Positions 49,867-55,115 of a stretch of 64,000 nt of DNA are shown here, one piece after another. Origin of the DNA: Streptomyces alboniger (GTDB taxonomy: Bacteria > Actinomycetota > Actinomycetes > Streptomycetales > Streptomycetaceae); contig NZ_CP023695.1 of NCBI RefSeq assembly GCF_008704395.1, forward strand, positions 7,502,001 to 7,566,000, given 5' to 3'. Positions within the stretch are counted from its first letter, which is position 1, and every line of letters begins with the position of its first letter. The notes beneath the pieces were generated by a model, which was given only the letters and a program-made list of their open reading frames with translations, was not told the origin of the DNA and did not search any database. Both the position numbers and the translations under genes were made by a program.

Positions 49867-51317
49867 ACGCCTCCTTCACCGAACCCTCCGCCGCCGCTCC
49901 CGGCGGCGCCCGCGGCTCCCGCCCCGTCCGCATCGGCGTCCTGGTCACCGCGCTCCTCGCGGCCTGCTTCGCCTTCCAGCTCAACGCGAGCATGCTCAGC
50001 CCCGCCCTGAAGAACATCGAGGACTCCCTCGGGGCGACCTCCGCCGAAGTCGGCCTGACCCAGACCGCCTTCTTCACCTCCGCCGCGCTCTTCTCCCTCT
50101 TCCTGCCGCGCCTCGGCGACCTCGTCGGACGCCGCAAGGTACTCGCCGGAATGCTGGCGCTCATGGTCGTCGGCTGCGTGGTCGCCGCGCTCGCCGAGAG
50201 CGTGCCCATGCTCTTCGCGGGCCGCGTCATCCAGGGCGTCTCGGGACCCACCGTGCCGCTCTGCCTGATCATGCTGCGCAACGAAGTCCACGAGCCGAAG
50301 AAGTACGGCACCCTCCTCGGCGTCATCACCGCCGTCAACGGAGGCATCGCGGGCGTCGACTCCCTGGCGGGCGGCTACCTCGCCGACCACCACGGCTTCC
50401 AGTCGGTGTTCTGGCTGATGGCCGGTGTGGCCGCCGTCGCGGCGCTCCTGGTCGCCACGCTCACGCCCGAGTCGAAGGCCGCTCACAGCACCGACAGCCG
50501 CATGGACTGGCCCGGCGTCACCCTCCTCGTCGTCTCGGTCGGCGCCGCCCTCATCGCCCTGAACGAGGCCGGAAAGCTGGGCGCCGCGAACTGGCCGCTC
50601 GTCATCGGTCTCCTCCTCGTAGCGGGCATCGCCTTCGCCCTGTTCTGGCGCACGGAGGACCGCAGCAGCCACCCCCTGGTCGCCACCCGTCACCTGCGCC
50701 AGCGCTCCACCTGGGCGCTGCTGCTCACCACCGTCCTCACCATGACGGGCGTCTTCGCCGTGATGAACGGCATGATCCCCGCCTTCGCCCAGGACGCCCA
50801 GGCCGGTTTCGGCATGGGAGCCGAGCAGTCCGCCTGGTGGACCCTGACCCCCTACGCCCTCGCGGGCCTCGCCATGGGCCCGATCGCCGGGCGGCTGGCC
50901 GCCACGTACGGATACGGCCGCATCCTGCGCCTCGGCCTCATCGGCTCGATCGTCACGGTGACCCTGATGCTGTTCACCCTGCACACCGATTCGCGCCTGC
51001 TGCTCCTGGCCGCGTCGATCCTCATCGGCGTCACCTACGCGGGCGTCGGCAACATCGTCCTCAACGGCCTCGGCATCGTGCTCTCCCCGAAGGAGAACCC
51101 GGGCTTCCTGCCCGGCCTGAACGCGGGCGCCTTCAACCTCGGCGCCGGCCTCAGCTTCGCCGTCCTGTACGCCGTGCAGACCGCCGCCGAACCGGCCGAC
51201 AAGACCTCACCCGCCGGGTACGCGGCAGGCATGATCGCCGGGGTCGCGCTCATCGCGGCGGCCTTCGCGACGTCCTTCCTCATCCCCAAGCCGGTGGAGG
51301 CGGAGGCTACGGACTGA
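49863..51317 (+). CDS. MFS transporter coupled to nucleoside hydrolase
   Basis: A 484-residue transporter with about 14 membrane segments of the DHA2/EmrB-like type: [40 protein letters not shown], and [21 protein letters not shown]. The tight coupling to nucleoside hydrolase suggests nucleoside uptake or base export; EmrB-type proteins are usually exporters, so purging a hydrolysis product is also possible. Its 3' end overlaps the convergent terpene cyclase gene by 11 bases. Confidence 0.87.
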
Positions 51318-53565
51318 CCGGGCGCCGGCCGGCGGAGACTTGTGCCGGCAGGACGTCGGCCGCCGATGTGCCCAGGCCGGTCGGGACCATCCAGGCGGGA
51401 GCGGGCACGGCTGTGCCCGGGGCGAGCGGCGTGCGCGGGATGGTGTGGTGGGGCAGGGCCGCGGGCAGGTCGGCGTCCTTGTAGCGCCGTACGCTCACGT
51501 GCCAGTGGAGGACGGCGGCGAGGAAGTCCTTCAGCTCTTCCATGTAGGCGTCGAGGGCGCCGCGTTCGCCCTCGGTGAGGCCCAGGTCGTCGCAGAGTAC
51601 GGGCAGTTCATGGCGCAGCGCGTGCTGGAACTGGTCCATGCGGGCACGCATGAGGTTGTCGACGATGTGCAGGGCGGTGGGGTAGTCGCAGGCGAAGAAG
51701 TTCTGGACCACCAGGAGCATGTTGTGGAGCTCGCCCTCGTACTGCATCTCCTTCTGGTACGAGACGACGTCGTTGACCAGGAAGGCGTAGTCGGAGACGG
51801 CGCTCTCGACCGCGCGCAGGGTGCCGCTCTCATGGACGGCGGGCGGCAGTTTCCCCGCATGGCCCAGCCGGGACAGGCTCATGATCAGATCAGCGCCGAA
51901 CGTCTTGCGGCGCATCTCGATGTAGTCGACCGGGTCGGGCACGCGGTGCTGGGCCTGGTTGTGCAGCTCCCACACCCAGCTCCGCACCATGTCGGCCACC
52001 GCGTCGCGGTAGGCCGCACGCTGCGCGGGGAGCATGCGCGTGACCGTGCGCTCCCAGAGATCGGCCAGGGAGCGTTCGAGCGGGCCGACCGCCCCTGCCG
52101 CACCGGCCGCGGGGTCCGCGCAGTCCATGCGGGCCAGCAGCCGCTCGGTGCACAGCCGGGCGCCGGCGAGGTCGCGGGTGCGGCCGAAGACGAGGGGGTA
52201 GTAGTCGTCGCCGTAGGTGCCCCAGGTCAGCCACTCCGCGCTCAGTTCGATCTGCTCGGGGGTGCCGTCGGGGTCGAGGGCCGCCGAGCACAGGGCGAGG
52301 TCGTACCCGGTGATCTTCTCCAGGTCCCAGATGCTGTCGAGCAGACCCATCCGCCCGGCCCAGTCGATGGAGGCCCGGCGCGCGTGCTCGAGGTGCGGAC
52401 TGGAGCGCACCGGGAAGGGCATGGCGAAGTCGGGCAGCAGGGAAGGGCCGCGATGCTGGTTGAGCACCTGCGTATGGCCGCGGAGCCGGGCCCGGGCCGA
52501 GCGCCCGAACAGCCCCTCGATGTCCAGTGCCGAGGTGCCCAGGACCCCGCCGAACATCGACCGGCGCGCCGCGGCCTCCTCGTTCATGTAGCGGCTGGAG
52601 CGCATGTGCCACTCATGGCCGCCCGACTGCCAGTCCTGTAGCCCCTTCGTGTACGCGGTGACCCGCGCGCACTCCCCGGCCGTCAGCGCCTCCTCCAGGC
52701 ACAGGGCCGGGACCTCGGTGACGGCGGTGTTCTCGAACTGCTGGAGGCGGGAGGTCAGCAGGTCGTTGACGGCCTCGGCCGCCTCCTGGGTCGTACACCC
52801 CAAGAACGTCTCCAGGACCAGGACGCCGTTGCTGAGTTCACCCTCGTCCTCCACCTCACGCTGGTAGGAGAAGAGGTCGTTGCGCAGGTGGACGGCGTCC
52901 GCGAAGGCGTCCGTCAGGACGCGCAGCGGCCGGGAGGCGGCCACGGACGGCGGGAGTTCGGCCTGTGCCGCGTACTCGACGAGCCCCGCCGACCAGGGCG
53001 CACCGCCCACCTTGCGGCGCATCTCGATGTACTCCACGGGGTTGGCGACCCGCCCCTCGTTGATGTGGACCAGCTCCCACATCGATTCATTGAGCAGGTT
53101 CCTCGTACTGAGCGCGAACCGCTCCCGCCACTGTCGCGACATGCTCGGCACGGTCCGCGCCCACAGATCCGCCAGACCGGCCTCCACCGGGTTGACCGGC
53201 TCCGGGAAGCCTTCCGCCAGGTCCATCGGCATGAATGCGGGCAGCCGGTCCAGATAGGCCTTTCCGCCCTCCCGGTCCGGGGTCCGCTTGAACATCTCCA
53301 GGAAGTGGTCGTCGAAGAAGAACACCCACACATACCAGTCGGTCACCAGCGCCAGCGCTTCGGCGTCACAGTCCGGATGCGTGTACGCGCACAGCAAGGC
53401 GTAGTCGTGCGCGTCGAGATCGCTCTGCTCCCAGATCCCGGACCCCTCCAGCATGCCCATTTGCCGCGCCCACGCACGCGAATGCGTTCGGGCGGACTCC
53501 AGGTGCGGATTCAGCCGGGCCGGATACGGCACGTAGAAGTCCGGCAGGACGAACGACTGGGACAT
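51307..53565 (-). CDS. Geosmin-synthase-type bifunctional terpene cyclase
   Basis: A 752-residue tandem terpene synthase (GAGGAG eight bases before ATG 53565). N-domain: DDHFLE (85-90) and NDLFSYQRE (229-237) bind Mg-diphosphate and make germacradienol from farnesyl diphosphate. C-domain: GDDYYPLVF (452-460) and NDVVSYQKE (598-606) convert it to geosmin. The sequence is close to known geosmin synthases. The interdomain linker holds [10 protein letters not shown] (340-349), and residues 701-752 form a Pro/Ala-rich tail with [11 protein letters not shown] (728-738), which I associate with shell-targeting sequences. It follows the encapsulin gene on the same strand, 137 bp apart. Confidence 0.92.
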
Positions 53566-53633
53566 TGCTGCTGCTCCTCTGCTACTGCTCATCATGGCGC
53601 CCGTGTTGCCCGGCCCGGCGAGTCCGCTGGTGT

Positions 53634-53682: not shown

Positions 53683-53702
53683 AGGTCCTCCGTGCCGCTG
53701 GT

Positions 53703-55115
53703 TCAGTGCCAGCGGCTGACTTCCACGTTCTCCAGGACGCCGAGGGCGTCCGGGACGAGGATCGCCGCGGAGTAGTAGGCGGTGACGAGGTAGGAGATGA
53801 TCGCCTGTTCGTTGATCCCCATGAACCGCACCGACAGGCTCGGCTCGATCTCGTCCGGGATGCCGCTCTGCTGGAGCCCGATCACGCCCTGTTCGTCCTC
53901 ACCCGTACGCATGCAGATGATCGACGTCGTACGGGCTTCGGTCACCGGGATCTTGTTGCACGGGAAGATCGGCACTCCGCGCCAGGTGGGGATGCGGTGG
54001 CCGCCGATGTCCACGCTCTCCGGGACCAGGCCGCGCTTGTTGCACTCCCGGCCGAACGCGGCGATGGCGCGGGGGTGGGCGAGGAAGAGCTTGCTGCCCC
54101 GGCGCCGGGAGAGGAGTTCGTCCATGTCGTCGGGGCTGGGCACCCCGTGGTAGGGCTGGAGGCGCTGGCCGTAGTCGGCGTTGCTGAGCAGGCCGAACTC
54201 ACGGTTGTTGATGAGTTCGTCCTCCTGGCGCTCACGCAGCGCCTCCACGGTGAGCCGCAACTGCTGCTCGGTCTGGTTCATCGGCTGGTTGTACAGGTCC
54301 GCCACCCGGCTGTGGACCTTCAACACCGTCTGCGCGACCGAGAGTTCGTACTCGCGCGGGGCCGCCTCGTAGTCGACGTACGTGTGCGGGATCACGGCCT
54401 CGCCCACGTGCCCGGCGGCGAGGTCGATCGCCGCTTCGCCGTATTTGTTGGTCCCCTGCTGCGGAATGGCCGCCCCACCGTCGAGGTGCGCGCGCAGCGT
54501 CGGCGAGCGCTCGGCGAGGTTGTCGACGTCCGCGCGGGACAGCGTCAGGACCGTGCAGGCCGTGGCGGTCCTGAACGAACTCTCCCAGGTCCGCGCGTCG
54601 CCGGTCAGCGCCGTCTCACCGAAGTAGGCGCCGTCCGCGAGGACTCCCAGGACGGCTTCGTTTCCGTAGGGCCCGGTCCCGACCTTCTGCACCCGGCCGT
54701 GGGCCAGGAGGAAGACCATGTCCTGCGGGTCGCCCGCGGTGGCCAGGACGGTGCCGGCCGGGTACTCGCGCTGCTCGCAGCGGTGGGCCAGCTCGCTCAG
54801 CACGGCGTCGTCCGCGTAGTCGCGCAGTGCGGGCAGTTCACCCAGTTCGGCCGGGATGACCTCGGCGCGGCCGCCGGTCTGGACGAAGGTGACGCGGCCG
54901 TCCCCCAGCTCGTAGGCGAGCCGCCGGTTCACCCGGTAGGTACCGCCCTGGACCTGCACCCAGGGCAGCATGCGCAGCAGCCATCTGGAGCTGATCTCCT
55001 GCATCTGGGGCACGGACTTGGTGGTGGTGGCCAGATTCCGCGCGGCCGCCGTACCGAGACTCTGCTGGCGGGGAAGGTCCCCGGCTCGCACTTCCTGGTC
55101 GGAATCGACTGACAT
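53703..55115 (-). CDS. eshA: Family 2B encapsulin shell protein (EshA type)
   Basis: A 470-residue protein from ATG 55115 (GGAGG nine bases upstream), the same length as Streptomyces EshA. The HK97-type shell fold is split around an inserted cyclic-nucleotide-binding-like domain (about 100-205: [52 protein letters not shown]). The phosphate-binding cassette lacks the usual PRxA(A/T)T arginine, so cAMP binding is doubtful. The shell C-terminus includes [20 protein letters not shown] and [21 protein letters not shown]. Family 2B shells enclose terpene cyclases or prenyltransferases. The downstream neighbour here is a geosmin-type cyclase. Confidence 0.93.

Follow-up and report, generated by a model that had tools for sequence, protein, structure and literature searches.

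Among the terpene cyclases encoded beside Family 2B encapsulins, 2-methylisoborneol (2-MIB) synthase is reportedly packed in an EshA shell, according to work of about 2024. For geosmin synthase, the tie to a shell is one of gene neighbourhood in the literature consulted. A survey published in 2021 divided the Family 2-associated terpene cyclases into 2-MIB-synthase-like and geosmin-synthase-like groups (Andreas and Giessen, PMC8346489). The geosmin-synthase-like cyclases beside Family 2 shells carry a short motif between their domains and again at the C-terminus, perhaps for targeting, and the motif was proposed as a candidate targeting signal for both groups of Family 2B neighbours (PMC8346489). 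Downstream of a geoA gene in a cyanobacterium come two 'cnb' genes encoding 471 and 469 residues, a scheme said to be kept in other Cyanobacteria and in Deltaproteobacteria (PMC7251104); judging from size and annotation, the 'cnb' proteins are likely Family 2B shells. Furthermore, encapsulins lie in all geosmin clusters of the myxobacteria compared in a 2025 preprint (PMC12224551), and EshA-like proteins assemble into shells whose inserted domain binds no cyclic nucleotide, the latter citing earlier work (PMC12407261, 2025); the shells of a related Family 2B case measure 28 nm (PMC12407261).

Here we analyse a shell gene and a cyclase gene in a stretch of 64,000 nucleotides from Streptomyces alboniger (contig NZ_CP023695.1, positions 7,502,001 to 7,566,000), hereafter the window. 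We propose that the two genes probably constitute a self-contained Family 2B encapsulin module, i.e. a shell with a geosmin-synthase-type cyclase as its cargo, a reading drawn from the sequences and their comparison. An earlier note on the window regarded a geosmin-type cyclase beside a shell as a new extension of encapsulated terpene chemistry; such cyclases already figure in the 2021 survey, and the novelty of the pair as such is rejected by PMC8346489, PMC7251104 and PMC12224551. The window pair is an ordinary case of a known association, and the strain offers an unusually clear opportunity, having both a shell-linked and an unlinked geosmin-type cyclase.

Results

Shell and cyclase genes

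The features of the pair are as follows.

53703..55115, minus strand: Family 2B encapsulin shell protein, 470 residues (NF041163, Pfam, match to solved 9bhu_A)
54507..54770, minus strand: cyclic-nucleotide-binding-like domain inserted in the shell protein, residues 116-203 (Pfam PF00027 cNMP_binding)
53566..53702, minus strand: gap of 137 bp separating the two genes and containing a long G+C-rich stem-loop
51307..53565, minus strand: two-domain germacradienol/geosmin-synthase-type cyclase, 752 residues, an extra copy in the genome (Pfam, NCBIfam, motifs, model)
52519..52551, minus strand: degenerate interdomain copy of the cargo motif, residues 339-349, in a predicted disordered linker, residues 324-358 (sequence, model)
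51355..51387, minus strand: C-terminal cargo motif, residues 727-737, in a predicted disordered tail, residues 701-752 (matches the published candidate consensus)

The earlier note had recognised an EshA-type shell gene of 470 residues with a cyclic-nucleotide-binding-like domain splitting an HK97-like fold, and the identity of the gene as a Family 2B shell is borne out. The NCBIfam model NF041163 (encap_f2b) scores 760.5 bits against a cut-off of 400, and the insert characteristic of Family 2B is present, with PF00027 at residues 116-203 followed by the SrpI-like PF19307 at residues 219-467. The top solved relative by sequence, 9bhu_A ('Nucleotide-binding protein', 470 residues), matches essentially the full length (residues 1-469, 650.8 bits). 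An HK97-like fold is predicted for the protein on account of its homology to solved chains.

The position of the shell gene directly upstream of, and co-oriented with, a bifunctional geosmin-synthase-type cyclase likewise agrees with what had been noted, coordinates included, with the shell first and the cyclase 137 bp downstream. The cyclase contains two Terpene_syn_C_2 stretches by Pfam, and its four motifs, DDHFLE at residue 85, NDLFSYQRE at 229, DDYYP at 453 and NDVVSYQKE at 598, are all intact; we take these to be metal-binding. At the D, N, S and E positions of these motifs, 25 aligned cyclases, including that of the window, show no variation. The protein has the make-up of germacradienol/geosmin synthases, i.e. 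two class I terpene cyclase domains, each with its own pair of metal-binding motifs. The AlphaFold2 model (mean predicted local distance difference test score, pLDDT, 80.0) comprises two helical domains, with pLDDT below 50 in the linker and in the tail, which are therefore predicted to be disordered. The N-terminal domain resembles that of the solved S. coelicolor germacradienol/geosmin synthase (5dz2, 5dw7), with a template-modelling (TM) score of 0.98 over the solved domain and 78% identity to 5dz2. The N-terminal domain alone of the S. coelicolor enzyme turned up among the structure matches listed, and the window cyclase has its own tail.

The intergenic stem-loop has a folding z of -2.31, 5 of 200 shuffled sequences folding equally well, and a T-run terminator looked for in 53566-53702 was not found there. 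The stem-loop may be a means of setting the shell-to-cargo ratio; shell gaps beside polyprenyl synthase genes also fold strongly, as judged without comparison to shuffled sequences.

Other shells and cyclases in the genome

The S. alboniger genome, a single contig of 7.96 Mb, holds three Family 2B shells. The two others, as well as a stand-alone geosmin-type synthase, are additional to what the earlier note contained, which had suggested searching other Streptomyces genomes for such a synthase; in S. alboniger itself one is present at 6445215 (721 residues), 64% identical to the window cyclase, which is hence an extra copy. The second shell, at 5317235, is 78% identical to that of the window and lies beside a polyprenyl synthase scoring above the NF041169 cargo cut-off, and the third, at 785274, is 63% identical and lies beside a 2-MIB synthase and a methyltransferase. 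The locus of the latter (G000:C1, L009, 8775-12452) is a complete set of shell, 2-MIB synthase and geranyl diphosphate 2-C-methyltransferase, and together with the shell and polyprenyl synthase of L008 (G000:C1, 9227-11821) it brings the number of Family 2B systems of terpene type in this strain to three.

Compared to the described systems, the window pair shares with the Family 2B shells and geosmin-synthase-like cyclases of PMC8346489 a shell with an internal cyclic-nucleotide-binding-like domain and a two-domain cyclase bearing the published motif. It differs in that the interdomain motif is degenerate, the C-terminal one alone being intact, that the cyclase is an extra copy, and that the shell belongs to a lineage associated with polyprenyl synthases. 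In agreement with the EshA/2-MIB synthase operon, the shell comes first and the cyclase second, in the same orientation, and a GPSGLGT-type motif is found in the cyclase; in that operon, however, the cyclase has a single domain with the motif in an N-terminal extension, a methyltransferase is included and the shell is 63% identical. The closest shell lineage is that of the Family 2B systems with polyprenyl transferase cargo (NF041169), at 78% identity within S. alboniger and up to 83% elsewhere, but there the cargo gene encodes a polyprenyl synthase, and the resident one is without the motif.

The cargo motif

That the cyclase is shell cargo had been inferred from linkage, and this is supported by the published candidate motif, found at residues 727-737 in the predicted disordered tail, as expected of a Family 2B terpene-cyclase cargo. 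Both copies of the motif sit in segments with pLDDT below 50. We counted a stricter pattern, G[LFPIVAM]G[TVMI][SAT][ASGVT], in the linker or tail, taking the expectation from shuffled linker and tail residues, counting identical proteins once and excluding cyclases shorter than 650 residues or with masked bases. Cyclases are termed unlinked where no shell match was seen with at least 1.4 kb visible on each side, so that shell genes farther away would escape notice. The pattern occurs in 117 of 130 distinct unlinked cyclases (2.1 expected) and in 7 of 9 shell-linked ones (0.1 expected), and a looser pattern in 127 of 130 (14.4 expected) and 9 of 9 (1.0 expected), respectively; a narrower pattern with a cruder cut of linker and tail, superseded by the 130-cyclase count, gave 90 of 120 (1.75 expected). 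The notion of the motif as a marker of shell-linked cyclases alone is rejected by the first of these counts. The main caveat on the conservation of the motif is that the cyclases share ancestry. Tails range from 23 to 148 residues, and in many the motif lies close to the tail end.

Within S. alboniger, the resident 2-MIB synthase carries GPSGLGTAGLR in its N-terminal extension, the motif is absent from the resident polyprenyl synthase, and none was seen by eye in L007, an unrelated cyclase that the genome also encodes.

Linkage across Streptomyces

The cyclase was searched for in 392 Streptomyces genomes at E <=1e-150, and cyclase and shell together in a sample of 150; linked genes in further genomes may be missed, as may second copies too weak to pass the cut-offs. 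At this threshold, 377 of the 392 genomes have the cyclase. Among the matches listed, seven genomes have two copies (G000, G054, G086, G134, G180 and G283, and, at E 1e-100, G089), and each of the seven has one copy adjoining a Family 2B shell and one without such a neighbour; in four further genomes with two matches (G096, G106, G287, G376) these are a single gene in two pieces. Conversely, a shell was seen beside the cyclase in none of 59 single-copy Streptomyces loci read, 49 of them high-ranking and 10 from the phylum sample (Fisher p 1.3e-9 against 7/7, with most of the 59 chosen by score). Linked genes do occur in at least five other single-copy genomes (G010, G043, G051, G287, G376). 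The survey proposed in the earlier note thus gives a divided answer: the same pairing recurs in every two-copy genome among the matches listed and in other lineages, but is missing from the 59 single-copy loci. Lack of conservation in related genomes, which had been named as an argument against packing, accordingly holds for those 59 loci and fails for the linkage in other lineages and for the genome-wide co-occurrence described below.

On a shell tree of 47 rows, the distribution of linkage needs 5 gains or losses, 3 of them forced by starred branches, and on a cyclase tree of 62 rows (the linked cyclases, twelve named ones, 42 random draws and P0003) it needs 6, of which 4 are forced, with support from the Shimodaira-Hasegawa-like approximate likelihood-ratio test (SH-aLRT) only. 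The window shell is nested among shells adjoining polyprenyl synthase, and shell-first, cargo-first and divergent arrangements are all seen at linked loci. As linked shells and cyclases fall in several lineages, the partnership has formed or dissolved on more than one occasion, and shells of differing stock were involved.

Several linked loci stand out individually. At L266 (G089:C1:5422744), a Family 2B shell and a divergent geosmin-synthase-like cyclase are 2 bp apart; the cyclase keeps two cargo motifs, with no acidic motif recognisable in its domain 2 by the pattern used. At L170 (G010) and L077, shell and cyclase diverge on opposite strands, and in L170 the cyclase frame stops early in the second domain, the shell being intact. 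The linked cyclases of L175 and L176 (G054, G134) have DDWFLE instead of DDHFLE and lie close to both a second shell and a cyclase resembling 2-MIB synthase (36-37% identity); they perhaps make a different product.

Genome-wide co-occurrence

Across 396 Actinomycetota genomes, the cyclase is found in 15, of which 12 are Streptomyces, and a shell match in 19. Three of the latter (G538, G758, G766) were set aside as 2A-like, given that the matches span only about residues 228-470 and are without the insert. A full-length Family 2B shell is thereby present in 15/15 cyclase-bearing genomes and 1/381 cyclase-free ones. The exception, G620, carries two neighbouring Family 2B shells (L243, G620:C59:45923-48735) in a genome without a geosmin-type cyclase match. 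By genus, the 4 with cyclase are all among the 5 with shell, out of 236 (Fisher p 4e-8). Shell and cyclase are adjacent in the three non-Streptomyces cyclase genomes (G482, G493, G574), and a Family 2B shell was found in 5/5 genomes behind the other-genus records with unlinked cyclases (L095, L104, L123, L129, L140). In the 150-genome Streptomyces sample, a shell is present in 146 of the 147 genomes with the cyclase and in 1 of the 3 without it. Where one shell and one cyclase lie on different contigs or megabases apart, the shell adjoins a polyprenyl synthase in 17/17 genomes among the matches listed; these are high-ranking shells, biased to the polyprenyl type, and divergent shells may be missed. 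The family searches gave matches in none of 14 named control genomes.

The shell N-arm

One further segment of the shell protein resembles the cargo motif.

55017..55061, minus strand: shell N-arm segment, residues 19-33 (shares L-G-T-x-A-A-R with the cargo motif)

Residues L20, A24, A25, R26, L28, T31, T32 and K33 of this segment are invariant in 18/18 aligned Family 2B shells, most of which share a common reading of the arm. The best match to a cargo-motif profile falls within the first 40 residues in 47/47 shells, though with a low score in some. The window shell scores 7.88, a value reached by 10 of 533 background reading frames and 2 of 200 column-permuted profiles; the top background frame is the resident 2-MIB synthase, itself included in the 533. 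The shell median is 7.3, with several near or below zero, including six cyclase-linked ones (L077, L170, L172, L175, L176, L197). The motif may work by imitating the N-arm (SLGTxAARNL) and docking where the N-arm docks, the profile test being suggestive only. In a published structure, the N-arm comprises 23 residues, was resolved for one of the two shell proteins and lies at the two-fold pore (PMC12407261). A text search of open papers found no printed mention of the resemblance, and the motif strings matched only PMC8346489.

Neighbouring genes

On the other side of the pair, the genes for a uridine nucleoside hydrolase (UriH) and a uridine transporter (UriT) adjoin the cyclase (48838-51317), the UriT gene, on the opposite strand, overlapping its 3' end by 11 bp, tail to tail.

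Discussion

The gene identities, the intact active-site motifs, the position of the cargo motif in predicted disorder, the extra-copy status of the cyclase and the repeated change of linkage are established here. For assembly, packing, product and co-transcription we infer the following. The 470-residue protein would build an icosahedral shell, to which the cyclase would be recruited as cargo via PTGLGTSAA at the end of its flexible tail, with a decayed second copy of the motif in the interdomain linker. Inside the shell, the cyclase would convert farnesyl diphosphate to germacradienol and then to geosmin, and the module would serve as an addition to the resident stand-alone geosmin-type synthase.

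Several observations weigh against this proposal. The AlphaFold2 model of the shell protein (mean pLDDT 53.8) is too poor for a fold search, the insert being its best-modelled stretch. NF041168, the model for Family 2 encapsulin cargo terpene cyclases, scores the window cyclase at 1127.6 bits over positions 1-734 of 735, below the cut-off of 1200, and for this reason we name the protein geosmin-synthase-type rather than a member of NF041168; the resident stand-alone cyclase, at 1142.9 bits, falls below as well. Co-transcription is not assured, as a strong stem-loop separates the genes. As the motif is present in most unlinked cyclases, it may have been inherited from an ancestor or have a different function, and the changes of linkage on the trees may reflect loss of an ancient association in Streptomyces as well as gain. 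Finally, the 2-MIB operon's shell gene, eshA, is dispensable for the making of 2-MIB (PMC6428758), and therefore a shell need not be essential.

Of the alternatives, the one that survives best retains the cyclase as shell cargo and supposes that it has drifted from geosmin to another sesquiterpene, e.g. germacradienol or germacrene D. We regard this as rather unlikely. The window cyclase is just 64% identical to the resident copy, and the missing acidic motif in domain 2 of the linked extra cyclase of L266 is compatible with drift; however, all four metal-binding motifs of the window cyclase are intact, with the positions invariant in the alignment, and relatives in its clade are the sole geosmin-synthase-type gene found in several genomes, e.g. 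G303 and G299. A less probable alternative, to which we give little weight, is that the two genes are neighbours without packing, with the true cargo of the shell encoded elsewhere, e.g. the polyprenyl synthase of the related locus, and another role for the tail motif. The lineage of the window shell, usually found beside polyprenyl synthase, and the retention of the motif in unlinked cyclases would fit such a view, whereas the linkage to shells of differing lineages, the genome-wide co-occurrence and the linkage of all seven extra copies among the matches listed argue against it. So do the absence of the motif from the resident polyprenyl synthase and its presence in the N-terminal extension of the resident 2-MIB synthase, which belongs to a group named as putative shell cargo (PMC8346489). 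Last, a Crp/Fnr-type cyclic-nucleotide-responsive regulator of the cyclase, as in older EshA-like annotations and in deposited names still reading 'Crp/Fnr family transcriptional regulator', is rejected despite the cyclic-nucleotide-binding-like domain and is most improbable, as Pfam finds no DNA-binding domain in the 470-residue protein, shell-protein models cover most of it, and such proteins form shells with an insert that binds no cyclic nucleotide (PMC12407261).

Beyond the self-contained module proposed for the window, the sequence comparisons allow a broader and more tentative suggestion, which we consider possible though not the likelier case: stand-alone geosmin synthases throughout Streptomyces may use the conserved LG[TMV]SAA motif to be loaded in trans into a Family 2B shell resident in the genome, often the one linked to polyprenyl diphosphate synthase. 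In S. coelicolor, the corresponding genes would be SCO6073, for a stand-alone geosmin synthase, and SCO5249, for the shell of the polyprenyl-synthase locus. Precursor-making and odorant-making enzymes may then share a compartment, and the window pair would be the same partnership brought together as one transferable module. Against loading in trans stand the cyclase-bearing genome G102, a fragmented assembly and the sole one of 147 without a shell match, and the 15 of 392 Streptomyces genomes lacking the cyclase, of which 8 have a shell and 7 do not. In addition, the sole Family 2B shell found in the Microtetraspora glauca genome (G777) adjoins a 2-MIB synthase, so that the resident shell is not always of the polyprenyl type.

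In conclusion, S. alboniger is a good test strain, with one linked cyclase, one unlinked cyclase and three shells. If loading in trans were true, a trait found in nearly all Streptomyces, the earthy odour linked to sporulation, would hinge on a protein organelle. The retention of a Family 2B shell in 147 of 150 sampled Streptomyces genomes would then have a reason, and a defined peptide, open to mutation, would be available for studying how Family 2B cargo is loaded.

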